Assembly (NCBI GenBank): GCA_017506865.1
Contig: JAFCMP010000224.1
Span: forward strand, 1,053,654 to 1,117,653
Length of the DNA stretch: 64,000 bases
Origin: Tribonema minus
Lineage: Eukaryota; Sar; Xanthophyceae; Tribonematales; Tribonemataceae
Direction: 5' to 3'
The position numbers were made by a program, and so were the translations under genes. This document shows positions 17,698 to 64,000 of this stretch, piece after piece; the first letter of the stretch is position 1; each line of letters opens with the position of its first letter. The notes under the pieces were generated by a model that saw only the letters and a program-made list of their open reading frames with translations, was not told the DNA's origin and did not search any database.

Positions 17698-19736
17698 ATG
17701 GACAGTAGAGCTAGAGGCAAGGCGTATAGGCTGCAGTATGACGCCACTTGCAACCCGGCCGAGGCTCAGCAACTAGTGCAGCAGGCGGTATAAAGCATCG
17801 ACACCACGCTAACAGTGGTGGCGATGTGGCAGTGGCGTGTCTTTGTGAAGCTGAGGACCAGCTCAGCCTTGCGAAGCACGCACAGGATGTGCAGGGGGCT
17901 CTCAGTACCAAGCACATCACCATATTGATCCCACCATTCACAGCAAATTCGATCCCAAAATCGTCATCTTCGCGAGCGCACCAGCCGTTTCTGCACGAGC
18001 AACCACGGTGACCTCCTGTGTGGCACCGCCCTCTACACCCACGCCGTCTGTCGTCAAAGCCGTGGAAGACGGCACCCTGCTCGACTATGTGGAATGGCAC
18101 CAGCGCGTGCAGTGAGACGGATATGTCGTCTTGGGGCGAATTGTGGGTGGCGATGTGCAAAGAGCGGAGTTTTGTAACGACACGACAGGAGAGGTAAGCG
18201 CAACTGGGCACTGTGCCTGTTACTGGCGTGACCGCTTTTACGTGCTCGTCAAGCAAATCGGCACTGTGCCTGTTGCTGGCGCGGCCGCTTTCACGTGCTC
18301 TTCACATCGTTCGGCACTGCGCCTGTTGCCGGCGCAACCGCTTTCACGTGCTCTTCAAGTCAATTGCCACTGCCCCTGTTGCTGGCGCGACCGCTGTCAC
18401 GTGCTCCTCAAATCTAGCCCCTCATCCGCAATTGCGAATGTGCCCTCCTCAGGTCTTGTACGCAGGCGATGCTGTCCCCAGCACTGTCAAACTTCGCGAG
18501 GATGGGTGGTGCAACCTGAGCGACCTTTGTGACCACCGCGACTCGCTGCACAATCCCATCTGGCTTGAGTTCAACAACGTGGGCCTGTGCCAGCGCCTGC
18601 GAAGCCCCATTGCTGTGGCCCTGCCCACCGTCGTGGCAGCGGCGGCGATCGTCATGGAGGAGCGCCAGCGGCCACGAGCGCCGCCCTTCGTCCTCTTCAA
18701 GACTCACAACAAGCCCTTCTTTGACACGTTGACTTCATTTCTTGACGACCTCGGCGAGGTGCTGAGCAGTGTGCACGTGCCTTGCTTCGACATGCGCACC
18801 ACACCACGGCACTTGGTCTATAAAAAGCAGATCCACAACGTCGGCCCGCGCGACTATGCGGTGTAGACATCCAATGGATTGCGCACTCTGTGGCTGTTAG
18901 CCACTGATTTTTTCTTGCCCTCCAACACGTTCAGCCTCAGCATATCCTCAACGATAAGCTCGTGAGCCAGCTCTCCCAACGCGCAGTTGCGCGGCGTGCC
19001 AGTCCGCGAACGCCGACGGTATTGCGCGCTATTGCGGAGTATCTGGTGCACATCGTGCCAGGTGCGCCGATGCAAGCATGGCAAGCGCTGCAGCAGCTGC
19101 AGCAAGCCGACGGGGTCGCACCGGCCAGCACGTGTCTGGAGGCGATCATGCAGGGCTTGGCTCTGCAGGACGCAGCGACTGCAGCAGCGGGTGGAGCAGC
19201 AGCAGCTCCGGCATCGCAGCGTGGACGCGACATACTTGCAGCACCGTGCGCAGTGCGAGCGCCAGCATACGGAGCTGCAGGGGTTGGTGGCGGAGATGCG
19301 GCGGGCGATAGCGGCAGAGAGGTGCTCTTTGAGCGAGCTGCAGCGGGACAAGGAGGCAGCTGTCAGCAGGCGCCACTCGGTGGTGCAAGACTTGGTGAGT
19401 GCAGAGAGCAGCTGGGTACAAAGTTTGAGTCCTTGTGCGAGGAGGTCGAAACCTTGAAGCACAGCGTGCAAGAGGAGGTGTGAGAGCTCACGGACCGCGT
19501 GAGCGCGCAAGATGAGAGGGTAAAGGCGTTGCGGCAGTTGCCTAGAAACTTGCAGCAGATACACTGTGTGTGTCAGAAGCTTGAGCGCCAGCAGATTTTT
19601 TCAAAGGCGCGCAGGCGTGTTGCCTCGTGCTGGTAGTAGAAAAGTAACCTCGAGGTATCCATTGACAAACTCCTTGTTAAGCTGCAAGCCCATGCGCGAG
19701 AGATTGGATACAATGTGGTTTTCAACAAGTTGTGAC
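17698..19736 (+). pseudogene. Broken paralogue of the 54.0-56.3 kb coiled-coil gene
   Basis: Colinear with 54056-56276 from the first ATG (MDSRARGKAYRLQYD) through an intron (donor GTAAGC at about 18194, acceptor CCTCAG near 18453) to the coiled-coil C-terminus. It carries several lesions. There is a TAA early in exon 1 plus frame changes. TGG reads TGA in the segment equivalent to VQWEGYVV (about 18114) and again in the segment equivalent to KVWELTD (about 19481). A TAG follows DYAV near 18864. Similarity continues upstream to about 17220, where the paralogue is preceded by the same satellite family. Almost certainly non-functional. Confidence 0.75.
18206..18412. repeat. 53-bp tandem repeat within the intron, 4 units
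   Basis: GGCACTGTGCCTGTTGCTGG-type units begin near 18207, 18260, 18313 and 18366. The intron of the 54.6-kb paralogue lacks the array, so it expanded in this copy or was lost in the other. Confidence 0.85.
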
Positions 19737-19739
19737 TGC

Positions 19740-21700
19740 ACAGACAGTTCTGATCACAACTTTGAAGTTTATCCATGCAAAATATCGTGCATCGCGCGTA
19801 TCCCCATCTGCAAACATGCATCGTGTGTGTTGTTGCATCTGTGCATGTTTCGGTACTTCTGAGGGCCGCCTACCGGCTTTGGCAGGCAAGCAGGCTTCGC
19901 ACTCTGCATTTAATGCAGAGATTGCTGAAAACCTGCTCTGAGCAGCTGCTCGCCAGGGTAAGGCAGGTTTCATATGCAAGTGCAGGCCTTGCGTGCACAT
20001 GTAACCTTTGGTTGAACATACATCCCGCCGCCGAAACTGCCGCTGTTGTTTTTGCAATCGGAACTGCTGCTGTTGCGTCGGCCAGTTCCCTCAACACTAC
20101 AACCTTGCCTGCATCTCGTCAACAACCTGCTGTTGGTGCTGTGTACCCGCATGCCTTCTCGGCGTCAGAAGGTCTCTTAGTGTTCCACAAGAAATTTTGT
20201 CCTCAAACCTCATCGCGCACAAACATACATAACTCGTACATAACTCAAAACCAACCCCTGTGAGTAGGAGGCATGTGCCCGGCACGCGCTAGCTAACGCT
20301 CGTATGCGCACGAGACACCCGCCAATAACATTTTTCTCCTTGTTGGTCCCTCCGGCCGCTCTCAGTGATCTCAGCTGCTCTCAAGCTGCATCCTGGGCCT
20401 CAACAATGTGAAACGACGCATCAAACAGCACTATCACTGGCTATTCAATGCCAGGTATTCTTTCAGGCGTGAAGGATATTGCAGTAGTGTGCTGCCTCTG
20501 CTTATTAGTGCTATTGCTAAGCCTGCTAGGTTGAGTGTACTTGCAGGTGCTTGCAGGTTGCCAGTGCGCGGGGTCCGGGCACGTGTCGGTTGCGAGTGCT
20601 TGCGAGTTGAATTGACGTAAGGGTGCAGATTGGTGTGAGGGCGCAGATGCTTTTGGGTTGTTGCATGTTGTGGCTTGGCTACTTTCATTATTGCGAGGTT
20701 CAGGTTCTGTGAACTCGGGGACTTCTCACTTGGGGGAGAGCATCCCGATGATGTGAAGAAGACCCCTCACATGTCATCCCAGACTAGCACACACAGCACT
20801 GCGAGGCAGCGGCTACACCTGAGGAAGTGCGTGCCGAGGTAGAGAAGGGTGAGAGAAACTTACAGAAGGCGGCACCATCAGGAAAGCTTGCCAGAGCAAG
20901 TTTGGCTGGGGGGATAGGTTTGGCGCAACAGTCACCATGAGTGAGAGCGTGTCTAATTCTGTGCACAGCTGCCGCAAGCGGATCCTCGACGATGACAGTC
21001 TGCAGCAGATCCTCAACTGGTACGGCCGAGGCGAACAGAGCAATGCTTTAGCAAGTACTGCAGATGTCTTGCATTGCTGATGGGGGCAGCCGTGGTTAGC
21101 GCCTGCTTGCCCACCAACATCATTGACATACAACATCTTTTTGAAGCAGCACGCCAACTAGCTCCCTAAGACTAACTTTTGATGCTATATCATATACCAC
21201 CTTGCCGCCGTAGGAAGAGCATCACAAGCAGTATCCTGGACTCATAGGTCATGGCGCTGCCTGCAATGATGACTTCATCTGTTTGAATAAAACTTCAGCC
21301 TGCCTAGTGAAAACATGTTTTCTGGATGATTTGTATCAAAATGCCAGAATGAGTATTTATACTGTTCATTTAAAGTAGTGTCGCATTATGTATAGCTGTT
21401 TGCAGTGGTTGCGCTGGGCAATTCCTGATAATATTGAAGTATAACAACTGGTAGTAGTATACTGTAGTAAGACTGACTTGCTTCTTAACAAGATCCGCCA
21501 TTGCCATAGACCTGATAAGGGTGGAGGTTTGCTGCAGCCAAACGATTGGATGAAATAACTTCAACAACATGTCATTGCGTACACAACGGCGTGTGCCAAC
21601 ATCGCCGCTTCGGATCCGCACCGCGATGCAGTCGGAATTGAAGCATGAACTTGTGCTTGTAAAGTGCAGTGCTTATAACTGCACAGGCGCAGACCTTGTG
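19740..21700. other. No recognisable gene
   Basis: Short blocks near 19740-19860 still resemble 56280-56530, the 3' flank of the paralogous gene. The remainder has only unsupported short ORFs. Confidence 0.5.
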
Positions 21701-54055: not shown

Positions 54056-56276
54056 ATGGACAGCAGGATCAGAGGAAACGCGTATTAGTCTGCAGTATGA
54101 CAGCACTGGCGACCCGGGCGAGGCTCAGGGGCTAGTGCTGCAGGCCGTAAGCAGCATCGACACGACACTAACAGCTGTGGCGCGCGGCAGTGGTGTTGTG
54201 TTTGTAAAAGCTCAAGGACCAGCTCAGCTTTGTGAAGCACGCCCGCAGGGTTCAAGAGGCCCTCAGCACTGACGCCGTCACCATTTCGACCCCCACCATC
54301 CACAGCAAGTTTGCTTCCAGATCCGCCATCTTCACTAACACACCAGCCGTTTCTGCACCGGCAGCCCCAAGCGCCTGTGTGGCTCCACCCTCCCTTACGT
54401 CCACGCCCTCTCTCGCCAGGGCCATTGGAGAAGACACCCTGCTCAACTACGTTGAGAGGCACCAGCGCGTGCAGTGGGAGGGATACGTCGTCAAAATCAC
54501 TCTCTCACCGACACTCTTCGGGCGCGTTGTGCTCGGTGACATGCATGGGGCGGACTTTTTCAATGATACAACAGGAGAGGTAAGCGCAAGCGGCTTTTAC
54601 TGCATTTGTTGCTGGCCTGGCTGGCAACCACATTATGCTTTATATAATCAAATCCATAACAGGGCATCACATCTTTCAGCCTCCTGCCACTTTTGCTCGA
54701 TGTTTACATGTGAATTGACTAGAGATCCCTTTTCTGCTACGAAGCATTTTTCGGGTCTGATAGAGTAGGTTAAGATATCATTTGTGACCATCCAGCAAGA
54801 AACACATGATGCAATACATACCGCAATCCACAATAGGCTGTGCAAAAACACACAATATTCCACTATTGCTGCCCCGACCACTATCACATGCTCTGCGTGG
54901 TCTGAGCCATCACCTCGTGTCTGACCGTGACCTAACCCTCACCCCTCACCCACAATTGGATATGTGCCCTCCCCCAGGTCTTGTACGCAGGCGACGCCGT
55001 CCCCGACACCGCAACACTTCGTGAGGATGGGTGGTGTAACTTAAGCGACCTTTGTGACTACCGCGACTCGCTCCACAATCCCCTCTGGCGAGAGTTCAAC
55101 AATGAAGTGGGCTTGTGCCAGCGCCTGCGAAGCATCATTGCAGTGGCGCTGCCCACTGTCGTCGCGGCGGCGGCAATCGTCATGGAGGAGCGCCAGCGGC
55201 CACAAGCGACGCACCTCGTCCTCTTCGTCAAGACTCACAACAGTCCCACCTTTGACACCTTGACTTCGTTCCTCCACGACCTCGACAAGGTGCTGAGCAC
55301 TGTGCGTGTCCCTTGCTTCAGTATGCGCACTACGCCATCGCACTTCGTCCACAAAAACACCATCCACAACTTCGGCCCGCGCGACTATGCGGTGGTGTCT
55401 TCTGGTGGGCTTCGCACCCTGTGGCCGTTAGCCACTGACTTCTTCATGCCAGCCGGCACGTTCAGCCAGGGCATTAGCATCCTCAACGACAAGCTCGTGA
55501 ACCAGCTCTCCCAACGCGCAGTAGCGCGGCTGGCGGGAGCGTACCAGTCCGCAAACGCCGACGCCATTGCGGAGTGTCTGGTGAACACAGCGCCAGGTGC
55601 GCCGATACAAGCATGGCGTGCGCTGCAGCAGCTGCAGCAAGCGGACGGGGTCGCAGCAGTCAGCACCCGTCTGGAGGCGATCATGCACGGCTTGGCTCTG
55701 CAGGACACACAGCGACTGCAGCAGCGGGTGGAGCAGCAGCAGCTCCACCATCGCAGCTTGGAGGCAACATGCTTGCAGTACCGTGAGCAGTGTGAACGGC
55801 AGCACACGGAGTTGCAGGGGTCGGTGGCGGAGGTGCGGCGGGCGATAGCAGCAGAGAGGAGCTCTTTGAGCCAGCTGCAGCGGGAAAAGGAGGCAGTGGT
55901 GGCCAGGCGCCGCTCAGTTGTGCAAGACTTGGTAAGTGCAGAGAGCAGCTGGGTACAGAGATTTGAGTCCTTGTGCAAGGAGGTTGAAACCTTGGAGCGC
56001 AGCGTGCAAGAGAAGGTGTGGGAGCTTACTGACCGCGCGAGCGCGAGAGATGAGAGGGTGAAGGCGTTGCGGCAGCTGCTTTCAGACATGCAGCAGCTAC
56101 ACTGCGCGAGTCAGAAGCTTGATAGCCAGCAGACAGTTTTCGAAGGCGTGCAGGCGCGGCGCCTCGCCCTGGTGGCGGAAGAGAGTAGCCTTGAGGTATC
56201 CATTGATGAGCTCTTTGTTCGGCTGCAGGCGCGCGCGCGAGAGATTGGGTACAATGTGGTTGTCAATAAGTTGTGA
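54056..56276 (+). pseudogene. Coiled-coil gene following the satellite; exon 2 intact, exon 1 damaged
   Basis: Exon 1 starts at ATG 54056 (MDSRIRGNAY) but meets a TAG at 54086. The reading then continues in a second frame (LQYDSTGDPGEAQ) and, after another shift near 54210, in a third (KHARRVQEALST) to the donor at 54579/54580. The intron is 54580-54977 (GTAAGC...CCCCCAG). Exon 2 (54978-56276) is fully open, about 432 codons. It has a small N-terminal domain with REDGWCNLSDLCDYRDS (faintly KilA-N/APSES-like), a helical middle, and from about residue 230 a long coiled coil (LQQRVEQQQLHHR onward) to the end. Function is unknown. An alternative downstream start could keep it partly functional. 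The paralogue at 17.7 kb carries different lesions. Confidence 0.6.
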
Positions 56277-56279
56277 ACG

Positions 56280-57120
56280 CACAGACAGCAATGAATTGCG
56301 AGGTGAAGCTGTAAAATGCTGATGGATAATAGAATACAAGAGATGTGCGGCCACACAGTTTGGGTGCTACATGTACATGCTCTTTGCACATTGCCTGTCT
56401 GCTTTGCGCATGTGCTCCTTTGGTGCAGGGCGCACAACAAGATTTGTCAACTCAAACGAGTACTTCAGAAGTGATTGCCTGTCTTCCATCTGCAAGCTTG
56501 CATTGTGTGTCTTGTTGCTCCATACATGTCAATTTTGAGTTATTGTAAGGTGTTTCAGCGAGAATGAAATGCGCACGTTTGCAGTCTCAAAGAAACTGCA
56601 CACGCTGTTGGCCGCATCTAATGCTTTGTGGCAGAAGAGGGCACGCAATATCACCACGGCTTCTATATTCGCGTCTCTGTGCGCAGCATCACTGAACAAG
56701 AAAGGCTTGCGCCACATCATAGACGAGGACAATAGCAACTTCACAGCGCAGGCGCTGGGCAGGTCCAGGTCCAGCTTGCCTCAAAATTTGTTTCAGGATA
56801 TTAACAGATCAATCCAGCAGCCTCACCAGGAAGACCCTTGAGTCTACGCTGTGCACGGGTCCAAGGCGCATGTGCACCCCTCATTTGTTTAAGAGGGCTT
56901 TAAAAGCCAAACCAATAAATCCGGTGTCAAGGCCTGCAAAGCGCCCACTTGCTGCGAAAGCTCCAGTGCGCCATGTTCACCCTACCGCATTGCCCACAGC
57001 AGCTGGTAGCTGCACTGCTAAACTTGGTGTCTGCTGTACTGCAACTCAGCACATCTGTGGCGTGAGCAATAATTTGAGGCGCTTTTAGTGGCGATAACTC
57101 TTCGCAGGGCTGTATATTTC
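56280..57120. other. Spacer with one small ORF
   Basis: A 90-aa plus ORF (56569-56841; MRTFAVSKKLHTLLAASN) has ordinary composition but no supporting feature. The first ~250 bp resemble 19.74-19.86 kb. No other gene was seen. Confidence 0.4.
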
Positions 57121-57124
57121 CTCC

Positions 57125-57250
57125 CTGTTGGAATCTGGTGTGCATTCCAACACAGAACGTTGGAATGAAGTTCGCATTCCAACCGAACGTTGGAATTCAA
57201 GTTGCATCCAACACCCACACGTTGGAAGTTAAGCCGCATTCCAACCGGGC
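57125..57250. repeat. Alternating GCATTCCAAC / ACGTTGGAA motifs
   Basis: Three to four ~32-bp units, each holding GCATTCCAAC and then ACGTTGGAA, so each can form a small hairpin. They lie directly upstream of the ORF at 57281, and part of the series is duplicated at 57924-57990. Confidence 0.8.
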
Positions 57251-57280
57251 GGAAGTAGATAGGCCTCACAGCACAGCACC

Positions 57281-57973
57281 ATGGACAATCCTCACATGCA
57301 GCAGCCACCGCAGCGCCAAAATGACTTCCTGCCATGGCACCAAGCGGAGATGCAATACCAGTATCAGCTGCTCCTGTTGCACCACCAGCAACATCAATTT
57401 CAGCAGCAGCAACAGGAGGAGACGTCGCAGCAGCAGGAGGAGGCGCAGCGGCAGCAGCAGCAGCAACAGGAGGAGACGCAGCAGCATGAGGCGCAGCAGC
57501 AGCAGGAGGGCGCCGCCCCTAAGGCCACTGCAAATCTGAAGTATCAGCGGTGGTACTTAGCGCATCGGCAGGAGAAGTTGGAGAAGTCGAGGCTCCAGAG
57601 CAAGAATAAGGAGGTGGCGAAGCGGCTGGCAGCAACCCTGCGTGCGATGCACCAGGCAAACATCAATGCCAATATGCACAGCATAGGACAAGCTGCACTG
57701 GGTGCCAGCCATGCTGCAGCGGCGCGGGTTGCCCTGGCTCGACTTGAAGACACGACCACCAGGGCTCTCGCCACCGATGGCTACTGCTTCGTTCCCGGCA
57801 GTGAAACATTCACAGCCCTCACAGAAAGGCTGCTGGACGCTATGCCTTCCAGTATCAACACGGCTGCTCACCCGTGGGAGAACATCTTAAACTCGGTGCC
57901 GGGCATAAGGTGCCAGGTGAAGGCGAACGTTAGAGTTCAAGTTGCATTCCAACACCCACACGTTGGAAGTTAA
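57281..57973 (+). CDS. Gln-rich protein, 230 aa, unknown
   Basis: Starts ATGGAC in ACC context (MDNPHMQQPPQRQND). Residues about 30-80 are Gln/Glu repeats. A basic helical part follows (YLAHRQEKLEKSRLQSKNK), then an Ala-rich helix and a segment ending NSVPGIRCQ. The ORF then reads into the duplicated leader copy (57924 onward), so the real 3' end may have been displaced by the duplication or may be a splice site near 57915. No domain recognised. The start region is repeated at 57924-58107, where a second copy of the first 29 codons is cut off by the LTR element. Confidence 0.45.
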   Translation: MDNPHMQQPPQRQNDFLPWHQAEMQYQYQLLLLHHQQHQFQQQQQEETSQQQEEAQRQQQQQQEETQQHEAQQQQEGAAPKATANLKYQRWYLAHRQEKLEKSRLQSKNKEVAKRLAATLRAMHQANINANMHSIGQAALGASHAAAARVALARLEDTTTRALATDGYCFVPGSETFTALTERLLDAMPSSINTAAHPWENILNSVPGIRCQVKANVRVQVAFQHPHVGS

Positions 57974-58107
57974 GCCCATTCCAACCGGGCGGAAGTAGAT
58001 AGGCCTCACAGCACAGCACCATGGACAATCCTCACATGCAGCAGCCACCGCAGCGCCAAAATGACTTCCTGCCATGGCACCAAGTGGAGATGCAGTACCA
58101 GTATCAG
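57924..58107 (+). repeat. 184-bp duplication of the leader and start of the 57281 gene
   Basis: Near-identical to 57184-57367 (offset 740 bp) through the ATG and the first 29 codons. The match stops at CAGTATCAG, two bases before the LTR at 58110. Confidence 0.9.
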
Positions 58108-58109
58108 AC

Positions 58110-58316
58110 TGTGGTGACACTGGATGTTGGAGTGTCACCTGTAACTGTTACGGTTGGCAGTTACGAGTTGTTCGTTGTGTTTGTTTGGCTCAGACAAGAG
58201 CAGCAGCCCCAGAATACACATAGCACAGTTCGGTCAGCTGTGTTGTGTGTGGGTGTCTTCTCTGCATTGTTCCCTGCACTTGCTGAAGTGTAGTACGGAG
58301 ACTAGTTGTTTCATCA
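58110..58316 (+). repeat. 5' LTR of Ty3/gypsy-type element
   Basis: 207 bp, proposed from the TG start (TGTGGTGACACTGG) to the CA end (TTTCATCA), followed by a primer-binding-like site. GGTGACAC and GTGTCACC form a perfect 8-bp inverted repeat within the first 30 bp. The 3' LTR lies outside the window, so the ends are unconfirmed. Confidence 0.6.
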
Positions 58317-58318
58317 GT

Positions 58319-58333
58319 TGGTTCCCGAGTACG
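58319..58333 (+). promoter_or_regulatory. Primer-binding-site candidate
   Basis: TGGTTCCCGAGTACG begins with TGG, two bases after the proposed LTR end, as expected for complementarity to a tRNA 3' CCA end. The tRNA was not identified. Confidence 0.55.
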
Positions 58334-58376
58334 AAAAGACGACCTTTGACCAAATCCACCAGGCGATAGCGGTACG

Positions 58377-61300
58377 ATGGCGCACGAGCAGGACTCGGCG
58401 CGTGCTGCATCAGGAGTAAACTCTCGCGCAACGCGGAGCTCTGGAGTTGTGTTGGCCAAGCTGCCCTATGGCCACAACCCGGAGCCGAGGCGTGTGCAGA
58501 GGTCACGGAGTTTGTCCGTGGGACGCGCAGCATCACTGGCAGATGCTGTTGCGATCAAGGCTGGAGGCGCTGCTGGTGGCGCAGTCGTACCAGCCCAGAG
58601 TGCGAACGAGCTAGCAAGCGGCAGCGCAGTGAGAACAGAGCCTGTGCCAGGGCCTGCAACTGACGCTGCTGCGGCGGCTCCGCACCACTTGTCCACCATC
58701 GGGAGCAGCGACACCACTTCAGGTCCAGTATCTGTCGCTGACCACGCTTTGGTGGAGTGGGCAGACAGTGCTGCTGCCGACTGGGGGCACGAGTCTGGCG
58801 GCAAGCCTTCTGGACCCACAGGACTTCTTGGCGCCCTCGCCGACAACCCGAAGCACCTGGTCATCCGCCCGATGGGATCTGGGCCCGCAATGGACGCGGT
58901 GCCCTCTCCTAGGGAGCGTGAAATGGAGCAGGAGGAGCAGCGAAAGGAAGCTGCGATGGTGGGGCATATGACTGCCGAGGAGGACTTGGACTTGCAGCTC
59001 AACATGGAGTTGCAGTACCTGCAGTCCGAGGTAACCAGCCTCAAAGGGGGGCTCGCAGGGGTGGCCAACACCACCTCTCTCATGGGGCAGGATCTGTGCA
59101 TGGTAATTACGCACAACTTGCCCGGTATCGACACATCGCTGCGCAGGCACCAGATGCAGCTGGCGGAGCACGCTAGTGCACTGGCGCAGATGGGGAGTGG
59201 CCCCACCATCGCAGGCGGTGCAGCATCACAGCGCGACATGGACGCGCTGGTACAGGATGTGATTCCTGTCATACAAGGAGACATGGCGGCCATCGCGGAG
59301 AGCATCGCGGAGGTCGGTGAGAGGGTCGCGACTGCGGAGTTGCGGCTGATCCACATGGGTGAGCGCCTGTCAGGAGTGGCAGCGGAGGTTGCGCAGGGGC
59401 AAAAGCGCATGGAGGAGGTGATCGCGCGGCACGAGGATCTGCTGCGGCGGCACAACAACGCTGCAGCGGGCGTGGGGGACATGCGGCGCCAGCTATTTGA
59501 GGTGGGCACTAAAGTTGCGATGCTTGATGCGCAGCGTCGTACCACAACGGCGTATGAGACATCCTTCCACTCTGTGGGTAGCAACTTTGGCAGCGCAGCA
59601 CCCAGTGTGGCTCCCGAGGACAGCGTGTCAGTAGCAGACTTCAGCACCAGCGGCCCGGCAGTGCCGCTTAGTACGATCCGCAGCAGCAGCGTGGCACGAC
59701 CGCCCATTGCGCCATACGCTGCACCATTGGCTGGGCCTGGAAAGCACGTGTCGCCGAGCGCATCGGCGGCGCCGACCATTCCTGCTGGCGGCGCTGACGC
59801 CCGGCCACTGCGTCAACAACTGGAACGTGTAACAAGCAGCTACGCTGCTGACTCGTCGGATGCGACTTTGGCACCCACAGCGCAGCCCACTATGAAGCCC
59901 GACGCTCAGCTGCAGCTGCAGCATGCAGCAGATCAGAGCCACTTCCATCAGGCTCTGATGACACTTACTATGCAGCGCGATGCAGCTACGGCAGAGGCTC
60001 AGCAGCTACGGAGGGTCAACGCTGGCCTATCGGCGGCGCCAACGGCCGCAATGGCGGCCGCCCCAGGTACTATGCAAGCAGCGGCTACCCAGCAGAGGCC
60101 GTCGACGACTGCTGCGCCAACTGCCTTGCCTGCTGCCACCCTCGCGGACGGCGGCAGCAGCGACTTTGGCGCCGCAGCCCGCGGCGCCGGCAGCAGCGGC
60201 GGCGCTGCAGGCAGCGGCGGCGCCGGAGGCGGCGCCGGCGGCGACGGCGACGGCGGTGGCGGAGGCGGCAGCGGCCCCTCTAGATCGCCCCGGGGCACTG
60301 TACCGGTTGGCGCAGCCTCTGGCGGCGGCAGCGGCGGCGGCGGTGGAGGCGGCGGTGGTGCAGGTGGCGCTGGTGGTGGCGGCAGTGGAGGCAGCCGTGA
60401 CGACAACTTTGATCGTGATGGCTGGGCTCTGCGCCGTGTACCGGCAGACTTGGACAAGCTGTTCCATGGCCTCACGCCTGTAAACCGCGGCGACGAGTAT
60501 GTCGTGTGGCAGATTGGCAGTCAACTGCTGGTGCACCTGCGCCACGCCTGCTCACTCGCGCGTCAGAAGGCCAAGCTGCCGCAGGTGCTCAACAGGGAGG
60601 ACGACTTTGGTTGCGAATGGCTGGCCCCCTTTACCATGGGCCTGTGTGTCGCCTTACGGGGCTCGCATCCGGCAGCAGCAACGGTGCGCGAGCAGGCAGA
60701 ACAATGGATCGCGGAGGGCGCACGGGGAGTGGCGGCTGGCACGAGAGACCTGCAGCTCTACAAGTGGCTCATGGAACAACTGGGGGAGCACTTCCAGCAA
60801 GGTCAGCCTTCTCGCATTGCGGCGGACCTGTTACGCGTGGCGGTGCGCAAAGACACGCCATTCCGTGATGCGCTCAACTACATGCAGTCCAAGTGCAACC
60901 TGTCCGCAATGATCGACCCGACAAACGACAACCTACGCGTCCAAGCTCTTACGGGCTTGGTAAACAGGCAATACCCAACAATTGCCGCGCAGGACAACAT
61001 TCGGGACATCATCAACCGCCACACACGCTACAGCATGCACCAGGCGCTTGAGGCGCTCAAGGCGCACCGCTCCGTGCAGCATCTCGCCAGCGGCGCACCC
61101 GCCGGCTACTCTATATACCCCGAGACACTCAGCACGGGCTCAGGCGGAGGCGCCAGCGGTCTAAGTGGCGGCAATGGTGGCGGTGGCACCAATGATTACG
61201 CGCTGGGCGACAGGAGGCGCAGGCAGCAGCGTGAATCAGTGACACTGAACTCCATGGCTCTGTTGGCAGTGGTGGAGGAGAAATTCACCAGCTCGGAGCG

Positions 61301-61637
61301 GGCGCGGGGTAACGCGCTGGGGTGCTACAACTGCGGCGGTGATCACCTGTTCAGCGCATGCTCGGAGGCATTCAACCACGCAGGTTGGGCAGCGGCAGCA
61401 GTACAACGCCCACTGGTGCAGAAATTTGCGCCTACGAACCAGACGACGTGGCAGGCACTCCGGTCGCGCATACGTGCTTTCAACAGCGGCGATGCCTCCT
61501 CGCTTCAGGGCCCGCGCGGCAGAGATTCCGCAGATGGTGGAAGCGGAAGTGGCGCTGGCGGTGGCAGGAGCTACAACCGCTACGGGGGCGGCTACGGCCG
61601 CGGCGGCCGTGGCAACAGTGGCAACAGGGGCACCTAG
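58377..61637 (+). CDS. gag: Gag of the Ty3/gypsy-type element, 1086 aa, ending in TAG
   Basis: Very long Gag. Order: Ala/Ser-rich N-terminus (1-170), a helical coiled-coil-like region (about 180-390), a Ser/Pro/Ala linker, a Gly-rich stretch (about 600-680), and a Gag core near 682-900 (WALRRVPADLDKLFHG, then EWLAPFTMGLCVALRG, then LYKWLMEQLGEHF). A zinc knuckle CYNCGGDHLFSAC lies at about 982-994, followed by an Arg/Gly-rich tail. The knuckle is CX2CX3HX4C, one residue shorter than the canonical CX2CX4HX4C. The ORF ends in TAG at 61635-61637 and the same frame remains open beyond it. Assembles the particle and binds RNA. Confidence 0.8.
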   Translation: MAHEQDSARAASGVNSRATRSSGVVLAKLPYGHNPEPRRVQRSRSLSVGRAASLADAVAIKAGGAAGGAVVPAQSANELASGSAVRTEPVPGPATDAAAAAPHHLSTIGSSDTTSGPVSVADHALVEWADSAAADWGHESGGKPSGPTGLLGALADNPKHLVIRPMGSGPAMDAVPSPREREMEQEEQRKEAAMVGHMTAEEDLDLQLNMELQYLQSEVTSLKGGLAGVANTTSLMGQDLCMVITHNLPGIDTSLRRHQMQLAEHASALAQMGSGPTIAGGAASQRDMDALVQDVIPVIQGDMAAIAESIAEVGERVATAELRLIHMGERLSGVAAEVAQGQKRMEEVIARHEDLLRRHNNAAAGVGDMRRQLFEVGTKVAMLDAQRRTTTAYETSFHSVGSNFGSAAPSVAPEDSVSVADFSTSGPAVPLSTIRSSSVARPPIAPYAAPLAGPGKHVSPSASAAPTIPAGGADARPLRQQLERVTSSYAADSSDATLAPTAQPTMKPDAQLQLQHAADQSHFHQALMTLTMQRDAATAEAQQLRRVNAGLSAAPTAAMAAAPGTMQAAATQQRPSTTAAPTALPAATLADGGSSDFGAAARGAGSSGGAAGSGGAGGGAGGDGDGGGGGGSGPSRSPRGTVPVGAASGGGSGGGGGGGGGAGGAGGGGSGGSRDDNFDRDGWALRRVPADLDKLFHGLTPVNRGDEYVVWQIGSQLLVHLRHACSLARQKAKLPQVLNREDDFGCEWLAPFTMGLCVALRGSHPAAATVREQAEQWIAEGARGVAAGTRDLQLYKWLMEQLGEHFQQGQPSRIAADLLRVAVRKDTPFRDALNYMQSKCNLSAMIDPTNDNLRVQALTGLVNRQYPTIAAQDNIRDIINRHTRYSMHQALEALKAHRSVQHLASGAPAGYSIYPETLSTGSGGGASGLSGGNGGGGTNDYALGDRRRRQQRESVTLNSMALLAVVEEKFTSSERARGNALGCYNCGGDHLFSACSEAFNHAGWAAAAVQRPLVQKFAPTNQTTWQALRSRIRAFNSGDASSLQGPRGRDSADGGSGSGAGGGRSYNRYGGGYGRGGRGNSGNRGT

Positions 61638-61710
61638 GGGTGCGACCCCCAGCCCACTCCTGGCTGGGGGGGAGCACTTGGAGCCTCTAGTGTCACTGGG
61701 GGGGGGAGTG
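61635..61710 (+). promoter_or_regulatory. Putative stop-codon readthrough signal (TAG plus pseudoknot)
   Basis: TAG (61635-61637) is followed by an 8-nt spacer GGGTGCGA and stem CCCCCAGCC (61646-61654). Next come a 7-nt loop CACTCCT and the complementary GGCTGGGGG (61662-61670), a perfect 9-bp stem. Loop bases CACTCC (61655-61660) are complementary to GGAGTG at 61705-61710, which would close an H-type pseudoknot. Gammaretroviruses use TAG, an 8-nt spacer and a pseudoknot for gag-pol readthrough. A competing hairpin (GTCACT with AGTGAC around the G run) exists. Confidence 0.6.
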
Positions 61711-63917
61711 ACGCCCTCCCCCCGACGACAGTCAGAGACGCTGCGGCAGCAGCGGCGCCTGCGGGCGTCGCGCAAGCTGCAGTGCGCGCGACGTCTGCGG
61801 GGGCGACGGCGAGCGCCGCCCAAGCAGCTGACGCGCAGCGGAGCGCTGCGATGGCAGCGGCGCCCTCGGGCGCCGCGCCAGTCGCAGCGCGTACTTCTGG
61901 TGTGGCGGCGCCGCGGCGCGCCGCGCACGCACCAGAGGCACTACGGAGTGCTGTGGCAGCAGCGGCGCCTACTGACGTCGCGCAAGCTGCAGCACGCGCG
62001 GCTTCTGCGAGGGTGCCGGTGAGCGCCGCCCAAACGGCTGACGCGCAACGAAGCGCTGCGATGGCAGCGGCGCCCTCGGGCACCGCGCCGGTCGCGGCGC
62101 GTGCTGCTGGTTTGGCGGTGCCTGCGCGCGCCGCGCACGCACCAACAGCACCACGGAGGGCTGCGGCAGCAGCGGTGTCTATGGACGTCGCGCAAGCGGC
62201 GCGCGCAGCTTCTTCAGTGGCGCCGTCGGGCGCCGCCCAAGAGGATGACGCGCAGCGGGGCGTTGCGATGGCAGCAGCGCCCTCGGGCGCCGCGCCAGTC
62301 GCGGCGCGTGCTTCTGGTGTGGCGGCGCCGCGACGCGCCGCGCTCGCACCAGCAGCACCACGGAACGCTGCGGCAGCAGCGGCACCTTTGGGCGCTGCGC
62401 TGTCTGCAGTGCATGCAGCTTCTGCAGCAGCGGCGAGCGCCGCCCACGCAGCAGCTGCGCAGCAGAGCGTTACGACGGCGCAGCTTCCGTTGAGCGCTGC
62501 TGCTGAGGAGGCGCCCACGAACGCTGCTCAAGCAGCAACGGCGCGATGGAGACCGGCGGCGTTGGCGGCGCCTGATGGTGCTGCACAGTCGCCGGCGACA
62601 ACAACTACGACTGTACAGCGATGGCCTATTTTGGGGCGACGTAAGTCCAGCGGCGCGCGGCTACGGCGCGCGCGCGCGGAGCGCCTGCAGCAGGAGCAGC
62701 GCGCTCGACAGCCGGTAGCACCCCTCAGCCCTATTCAGGAGCTTGGTACTCCAGCATGGAGACCCGTGCATGCTGCGGCGGGTCATGGAGTTGGCGCGCA
62801 CGCGTCATCGCAAGGGGGGGTGAGGATACCACCAGCACCAGCAGTGAGTAGCTGCAGCACGACTACAACTGCAACTTCTGCGCCGGCAACGGCGCCACAT
62901 TTGGCGACTGCAGCAGCTGCTGCGACACGACACACGACAACTCCATCTTCTACACCAACTTCAACTCTGACATCAACTGCGACTCCCACACATTCCTCAA
63001 GACCGCCTTCAGCACCACTCAGCGGCGGCGACGCTGCTGCGGCGGCGCACGCCGCCGACGACGCCGCCTTTGCAGCGGAGCAGCAGCGCAGGCTGATAGC
63101 TCTGCAGCGGCTTCATGCTTTCAAGGTGGATGGCACGGCTCAACCTGAGCCGCAGCGGCGGATGCGCAGCTGGGCGCCGGCGGCAGAGACCCTTGGCGCC
63201 ATCGACGAGGTGCTGGACGGCGAGGCGGGCCTGACAGCGGTGGAGATAGCCATGGCAGAGGAGGCGCGCACTGTTGAGCGCTGCTTCGAGATACTGGCCA
63301 TGTGGGCGCCGGAGGACGGAGCTGATGACGGGGCGGTCTTGGCATACTACGCTGAGGTGGCAGCGATGGAGGCCGCAGTACTACCTGTACCACAGCAGGC
63401 AAGCATGCCCAACGTAAGGGGCAAACTCTATACTGACGTGCACTCTAGGTTCAAGGCCCGTTTACGCTCTGCGCGCGCACTACGTTGCAAGTTTTCTAGG
63501 GACATTCTCTGGGACACTGGGGCCTCAGTTACTGCCATCAGGGAGCAAGCATTCCGCAAATTAGTTGCATCAGGAGCCATAGAGCAACGGGATGTCCACC
63601 AACTCAGCAAACCTAGGGCAGTAGCCGGTGTTGACACATCCAAGAAGCCACAGCGCGTCACCCACGCTGTAGCGCTTCACTTTGAGGCTGATGGCCCAGA
63701 CGGGGTAGCTTTCACTCAGCTGGCGCTCATTGTACCACATCTGCCACACGACATCATCATTGGGCGTGACCACATCAGCAGACATAAGTGGCATGCAAGT
63801 CATAGTGGCAGTGGGCCCACATACGTGTATGGCGAGCCATCAGCAGAGCCCACCCCAGCTTCAGTCCCAAAGTCCCAGTGTACACCTACGGGGAGGAACG
63901 CGATTGGGTGGCAGTAG
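61638..63917 (+). CDS. Pro-pol 5' part: Ala-rich linker and retropepsin-type protease
   Basis: Open in the gag frame from the codon after TAG; the first Met is 61782. A ~280-aa Ala/Arg/Pro linker contains about three ~70-aa repeats (AMAAAPSGAAPVAAR recurring), then Thr/Ser/Pro-rich spacers. A retropepsin domain follows: LWDTGASVTAI (Asp near residue 578 counted from 61782) and HDIIIGRDHI as the second conserved block. The frame stops at 63915-63917. The continuation VYTYGEERDWVAVVRV is open to the window edge in the -1 frame, entered at C_CCA_AAG (63866-63872). Reverse transcriptase and integrase would lie beyond the window. The stop is either a frameshift signal or an indel in this copy. Confidence 0.75.
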   Translation, partial: GCDPQPTPGWGGALGASSVTGGGSDALPPTTVRDAAAAAAPAGVAQAAVRATSAGATASAAQAADAQRSAAMAAAPSGAAPVAARTSGVAAPRRAAHAPEALRSAVAAAAPTDVAQAAARAASARVPVSAAQTADAQRSAAMAAAPSGTAPVAARAAGLAVPARAAHAPTAPRRAAAAAVSMDVAQAARAASSVAPSGAAQEDDAQRGVAMAAAPSGAAPVAARASGVAAPRRAALAPAAPRNAAAAAAPLGAALSAVHAASAAAASAAHAAAAQQSVTTAQLPLSAAAEEAPTNAAQAATARWRPAALAAPDGAAQSPATTTTTVQRWPILGRRKSSGARLRRARAERLQQEQRARQPVAPLSPIQELGTPAWRPVHAAAGHGVGAHASSQGGVRIPPAPAVSSCSTTTTATSAPATAPHLATAAAAATRHTTTPSSTPTSTLTSTATPTHSSRPPSAPLSGGDAAAAAHAADDAAFAAEQQRRLIALQRLHAFKVDGTAQPEPQRRMRSWAPAAETLGAIDEVLDGEAGLTAVEIAMAEEARTVERCFEILAMWAPEDGADDGAVLAYYAEVAAMEAAVLPVPQQASMPNVRGKLYTDVHSRFKARLRSARALRCKFSRDILWDTGASVTAIREQAFRKLVASGAIEQRDVHQLSKPRAVAGVDTSKKPQRVTHAVALHFEADGPDGVAFTQLALIVPHLPHDIIIGRDHISRHKWHASHSGSGPTYVYGEPSAEPTPASVPKSQCTPTGRNAIGWQ
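63866..63872 (+). promoter_or_regulatory. Candidate -1 frameshift heptamer C_CCA_AAG
   Basis: Fits X_XXY_YYZ in the zero frame; slipping back one base gives GTC CCA GTG TAC, which is open to 64000. It is not among the strongest known slippery heptamers and no downstream structure was established. Confidence 0.35.
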
Positions 63918-64000
63918 TGCGCGTCGCAACAGAGCTAGATGGCCTTGAACATGGTGTGCAGACAGTTTGGGTTCAAGTGATGGAGTCTGATGGGATCACA
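63872..64000 (+). CDS. pol: Pol continuation in the -1 frame, partial
   Basis: At least 43 codons open to the window edge (VPVYTYGEERDWVAVV...). It follows the protease and is expected to lead into the RT linker. No catalytic motif is reached within the window. Confidence 0.5.

Follow-up and report, generated by a model that had tools for sequence, protein, structure and literature searches.

Among the viral signals for stop codon readthrough, those of type III comprise the UAG-GGR context of the Tombusviridae and, in epsilonretroviruses, UAG-R with an extended stem-loop (PMC3542737, Table 5; this and all other papers are cited from extracts of their text). As listed there, they are like the signal analysed here in the UAG itself, a 3' G or purine, a 3' RNA structure and fusion of the product to a polymerase. 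They differ from it in that our algal-type element has its hairpin right behind the UAG and another conserved one further on, and the elements and hosts concerned are unrelated to the present ones. The epsilonretroviral combination of UAG-R and an extended stem-loop (PMC3542737) is nearer to our signal than is the gammaretroviral pseudoknot. With murine leukaemia virus, our element shares UAG-G, a single frame for gag and pol and a stem 8 nt downstream of the stop (PMC3542737, PMC2194720), whereas the unpaired spacer of that virus found no support here and its compact pseudoknot at most weak support.

In-frame stop codons between gag and pol are also described for Tj1, Tosmo and Tcry1, three fission yeast elements of the Ty3/gypsy class (PMC10085805, PMC4600332). 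In Tj1 the stop is needed for integration, and its removal abolished activity (PMC4600332). These elements resemble ours in class and in the in-frame gag-pol stop, but use UGA in a conserved 8-bp context, whereas ours has UAG with a covarying structure; the term pseudoknot is absent from PMC10085805. Readthrough in Ty3/gypsy elements was already known from Tj1, Tosmo and Tcry1, and what looks new is the structure in a methyltransferase-bearing Ty3/gypsy lineage. Tca2 of Candida albicans belongs to the Ty1/copia group. In this element a UGA is followed by 8 nt and a putative pseudoknot; no readthrough was seen in Saccharomyces cerevisiae, and C. albicans was not assayed (PMC2194720). Tca2 is thus like our element in the in-frame stop, the 8-nt spacer and the proposed 3' structure and differs in its UGA, and it is a warning: an arrangement of similar appearance gave no readthrough when tested in yeast. 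KnitGypsy-Dnmt3 of Klebsormidium nitens carries a Dnmt3-type C5 cytosine methyltransferase in a gypsy pol (PMC5890265). It is like our element in having such a methyltransferase in a gypsy pol polyprotein, a likeness by domain content only; the terms gag and readthrough do not occur in the text of that paper, which leaves gag-pol expression undiscussed. Among the titles and abstract beginnings covered by our literature search, with most subscription papers outside its scope, no signal of this kind was found described, nor was one mentioned in the extracts of the algal and plant papers PMC8226300 and PMC3350952.

The window, i.e. the whole 64,000-nt stretch of DNA that was analysed, lies at the end of a contig in a 158-Mb genome, and the parts of the element given below are on the forward strand. 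The 5' end of the element, probably a short LTR and leader, was placed at 58110..58376; LTR ends were deduced from where the matches of copies begin rather than mapped directly. In blastn comparisons with the window, the main match began at 58107-58110 in 17 of 20 fetched copies, the exceptions being L028, where it was split (58110-58325 in inverted orientation, the main match starting at 58312), L013 (from 57312) and L021 (from the start of its contig). Immediately upstream of the element, a 189-bp direct repeat (96% alike) occupies 57184-57370 and 57924-58111. Elsewhere in the window, 55502-56288 and 18967-19747 are 84% alike across 790 bp, and the 446-aa open frame that holds the former had no Pfam match over the cut-off.

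The gag ORF (58377..61634) runs for 1,086 codons from its ATG and has relatives elsewhere in the genome. A Pfam search of gag gave no match; a CCHC zinc knuckle motif, C-Y-N-C-G-G-D-H-L-F-S-A-C, lies at 61323-61361. As the initial annotation had noted, gag ends in TAG (61635..61637), the next base being G, and the same frame continues. The open stretch after the stop was longer than the ~93 codons assumed there: the pol ORF (61638..63914) has 759 codons in the window copy, where it ends near the contig end, vs 2,936 open codons in several other copies. The protease was correctly located further along this frame, in a region (63411..63914) with the motif D-T-G-A-S at 63513-63527 and Pfam matches below cut-off only (Asp_protease_2, E 0.048; RVP, 0.065). 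Self-comparison revealed direct repeats of ~210 bp at 61740..62484, encoding an Ala-rich linker from the junction to the protease; they are 81-82% alike, and similar ones occur further along in other copies. At 63880-64000 the frame of the window copy departs from that of most other copies, reflecting either a decayed copy or an error at the assembly end. Matches of other copies reach no further than protease query residue 157, after which one piece resumes in a different frame.

Domains beyond the protease were identified in another copy, L015, where pol matched the C5 cytosine DNA methylase (Pfam E 1.9e-18) and RVT_1 reverse transcriptase (3.7e-19) families and, further along, Integrase_H2C2 (6.8e-18) and rve (2e-7; 31.7 bits, just under the cut-off of 32.6). 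The methyltransferase (L015:6909-7847) lies between protease and reverse transcriptase, in a part of the element beyond the end of the window copy, and related families of this genome have it as well. With the protease, recognised by motif only, ahead of methyltransferase, reverse transcriptase and integrase, the domain order is consistent with Ty3/gypsy, to which we assigned the element. A six-frame search of the genome for a tyrosine recombinase (PF00589), the criterion for a DIRS-type element, was empty at E 0.001. Outside the window family, the methyltransferase domain had matches of ~50-66% identity, many of them on contigs that also bear related protease and gag, and weaker ones of 35-38%. 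Used alone as a query against a large protein set, the methyltransferase region returned nothing at E 0.001; further queries of this set were empty at the same threshold, probably swamped by low-complexity words. One copy has part of its own gag-pol junction duplicated behind it in inverted orientation (L017:5682-7402).

Conservation of the stop codon was first of all a matter of counting. Across the whole genome, a pattern consisting of TAG, 8 nt and the letters of the stem, with ≤3 mismatches, gave 88 matches compared to 2 for the reversed pattern used as control. The window family accounted for 45 of them; 43 lay outside it, one of which, at C549, looks like chance. TAG started 87 of the 88, a proportion biased in its favour by the inclusion of TAG in the pattern. 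Four matches on viral contigs were discarded as chance-like, having unrelated flanks and no stem, and the gag relatives at C124, C79, C73 and C10 had no match to the pattern. The expectation that copies of the element keep the stop and the stem was largely borne out: among 40 window-family copies read at the junction (L009-L048), TAG was present in 39 and the 9-bp stem was perfect in 37. Exceptions were nevertheless found, namely a TCG in the window-family copy L046 and, in another family, the absence of the stem from L063. In L039-L041, all on one contig, a single mismatch in the stem is common to the three, and L038 has one additional C ahead of the stem. These near copies say little on constraint because they are 96-100% identical across the query. 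L046 (G000:C479:201526-202426), in which gag is open over 1,412 codons, is through its TCG a natural readthrough control.

More telling were families whose relation to the window copy was found through the gag protein. A search with the gag C-terminus brought up relatives, those fetched being 26-30% identical to the window gag, and families this divergent retain TAG and about 95 nt. Of the eight places initially retrieved by gag homology alone, seven have a gag that ends in TAG, with a closely similar stretch behind it. The eighth, L063 (G000:C212:609750-610400), starts just past the place of its stop, and its protein-search match counts one TAG inside. It carries GGGUGCGACC at the junction, reads GGGTGCGACC after gag and then continues into unrelated sequence without the stem, and its long pol frame with the protease is offset from the gag frame. 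We took L063 for a deleted copy, yet it is one without the fold.

To compare the RNA structure, 29 rows (28 of them distinct) were aligned, comprising 25 of the 43 divergent motif matches and 4 window-family copies; the other 18 divergent matches and 36 of the 40 window-family copies stayed outside this alignment, A1. The perfect 9-bp stem with a 7-nt loop, H1 in the following, is present in the window as the initial annotation had described it (61646..61654 with 61662..61670, 9/9 complementary; loop at 61655..61661). Alignment of other copies showed that H1 is retained through compensatory changes: 99.2% of cells were paired, three pairs were doubly changed, and the covariation was higher than in any of 500 shuffles or any slid control. 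While the window has CCCCCAGCC/GGCUGGGGG, its relatives have CCCCACGCC/GGCGUGGGG, CCCCGCGCC/GGCGCGGGG, CCCCAGGCC/GGCCUGGGG and CCCUGCGCC/GGCGUAGGG, and some of these variants alter amino acids. A second helix, H0, abuts the stop and pairs GGGUGC (61638..61643), inside the supposed spacer, with GCACUU (61674..61679). It was paired in 98.2% of cells, its covariation exceeded all 500 shuffles, and it contained one co-varying pair, GUGC/GCAC being replaced by GUGU/ACAC in 4 of 28 sequences. Further downstream, the 8-bp hairpin H3 (61699..61706 with 61715..61722) was paired in 99.1% of cells, with two doubly changed pairs and again covariation above all 500 shuffles.

For the helices taken singly, the count of doubly changed pairs was unremarkable, being reached in 50/500 shuffles for H1, 248/500 for H0 and 240/500 for H3. 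As the shuffles ignore relatedness, the count was repeated on nine family representatives. Here 99.0% of cells were paired, the covariation was reached in 0/500 shuffles and the six doubly changed pairs in 3/500. RNAalifold, unprompted, returned H0, H1 and H3 together with a short fourth helix, and single-sequence folding gave H1 and the core of H0 in 6/6 divergent relatives tested, while for the window it favoured a variant outer pairing of UAGGGG with CCUCUA. The stability of the 96-nt window fold was modest with respect to shuffles (z −2.24, 6/200 being as stable). An outer helix around H3 was paired in 67.9% of cells, the same as in shuffles, and an Rfam search of 61500-61900 gave two matches, both far under their gathering scores. 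Taken as a whole, the comparison points to a real, conserved and structured signal at the gag-pol stop.

The alternative that fared best is a signal of the gammaretroviral type, in which the 8-nt spacer would stay unpaired and the hairpin loop would pair with a strand further downstream to give an H-type pseudoknot. We consider it doubtful. The distance between UAG and H1 is indeed 8 nt in 29/29 aligned rows, so that the spacer of the initial annotation holds as a distance, but six of its eight bases are paired with GCACUU in 98.2% of cells, a figure from comparison and not from probing. The proposed loop complement is likewise present in the window (CACTCC at 61655-61660, GGAGTG at 61705-61710, 44 nt between them), but its pairing is not conserved: 65.5% of cells were paired compared to a shuffled mean of 65.6%, and this pseudoknot was rejected. 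Pairing of the loop with a GGGGGC further on had zero doubly changed pairs and was rejected as well. The best case for a pseudoknot came from the pairing of the loop with GGGGGU just past H0 (A1 columns 23-28/47-52; aligned to 61680-61685 of the window), which reached 89.8% with three doubly changed pairs (1/500 shuffles) and, for the nine representatives, 90.7% with covariation reached in 2/500. The double changes rest, however, on single sequences, by our reading of the alignment on L086 alone; two of the pairs cannot form in 5 of 28 sequences, the window family fits badly, and over all rows covariation was not above shuffles (124/500). This weakly supported pairing, which may form in the relatives, would moreover be incompatible with H0 on geometric grounds. 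The hairpin of H0 and H1 and the loop pseudoknot, being mutually exclusive, might form a switch that sets the amount of polymerase and of the self-encoded DNA methyltransferase, an idea that we regard as improbable. With a loop/GGAGTG pairing that is not conserved and a spacer whose bases are mostly paired, the likeness to gammaretroviruses does not hold in its details, and a type III readthrough signal with a stop-abutting hairpin is the better description.

A readthrough signal requires gag and pol in one frame. We compared the start positions of the gag and protease matches in 42 hand-paired copies and found a common frame in 31, i.e. in 23/27 of the window family and 8/15 of other families. 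The remaining 11, including 7 of the 15 divergent copies, were out of frame, and only some are explained by damage, such as a 5-nt deletion in L062, ~1.1 kb of extra sequence in C423, and L063; two C26 copies have a common frame offset that is unexplained. L079, L080 and L082 carry a 9-nt insertion, which leaves the frame intact. Synonymous change in the first 33 codons after the TAG was lower than in the following codons in 21/21 pairs from seven loci, L062 being omitted. The contrast was strong in most pairs (0.10 vs 0.69 for L059/L065; 0.03 vs 0.23 for L059/L061) and weak in a few (0.48 vs 0.54 for window/L061; 0.04 vs 0.07 for L060/L066). We regard this result as supporting only, since amino-acid differences were also fewer at the junction and the downstream alignments of distant pairs were poor. 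Part of the conservation could also come from families exchanging the junction, but this does not explain the compensatory changes.

The strength of the RNA structure would also suit another role of the conserved segment, e.g. in packaging or dimerisation, with pol made by internal initiation, and an H3-like second hairpin is not known from the compact gammaretroviral signal. This explanation is very unlikely, given that the TAG is near-invariant, the frame is maintained through the segment and no start codon is shared close behind the TAG: at eight loci, none occurred within 151-175 codons in three, and the first lay at codons 71-83 in the other five. Splicing out of the TAG, with a minor mRNA encoding Gag-Pol, would have a precedent in Drosophila copia, which sets its gag/pol ratio in this way (PMC2194720), and the host, judged by the size and content of its genome, is presumably eukaryotic. 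We hold it to be slightly less probable still and rejected it on the positions of GT, which at eight loci share no common place within 57 nt upstream of the TAG (L059 has none, the sister loci L060, L065 and L066 have one in common at −11, the rest differ); furthermore, conservation of the bases past the TAG extends both to their in-frame codons and to the RNA fold. Reading of UAG as a sense codon by the host would account for a single conserved in-frame UAG within an otherwise open frame of ~4,000 codons, but a sense codon would recur, and as L015 has zero further stops in the 1,893 codons read past the TAG and the gag frame has none before it, this was dismissed as scarcely credible.

We therefore return to programmed readthrough of UAG as the way in which pol is made in this Ty3/gypsy-type lineage, to which we assign a probability of roughly 0.85. 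The structure-assisted readthrough put forward in the initial annotation appears well supported by the common frame, the TAG in 87 of 88 matches and the compensatory changes in the stem. Most ribosomes would terminate at the UAG and release Gag, while a minority would insert an amino acid there and proceed into protease, DNA methyltransferase, reverse transcriptase and integrase. The putative signal would consist of UAG, GGG and an extended hairpin starting at the very next base after the stop, made up of the 6-bp H0, a small internal loop, the 9-bp H1 and the 7-nt loop, and then a linker and the 8-bp H3. The base after the UAG was G in 27/29 aligned rows, L086 having UAG-A and L046 UCG-G. The fold might raise readthrough in that it hinders release or unwinding. 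What the DNA itself displays is the common frame, the TAG, the conservation across families, the covariation and the reduced synonymous change; that ribosomes pass the stop, how often and with which tRNA, is inferred from comparison. All this points to an arrangement in which the enzymes would be made at a low, set ratio to the coat protein.

In conclusion, compensatory change across retrotransposon families provides comparative evidence that a structured readthrough signal exists in a host which we call alga-like, following the initial annotation and the parallel with Klebsormidium. The junctions, which differ in sequence and are equal in structure, form a natural series on which the needs of a readthrough-promoting fold can be tested. 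If the proposed mechanism is true, a DNA methyltransferase borne by a retrotransposon would fall under translational ratio control.
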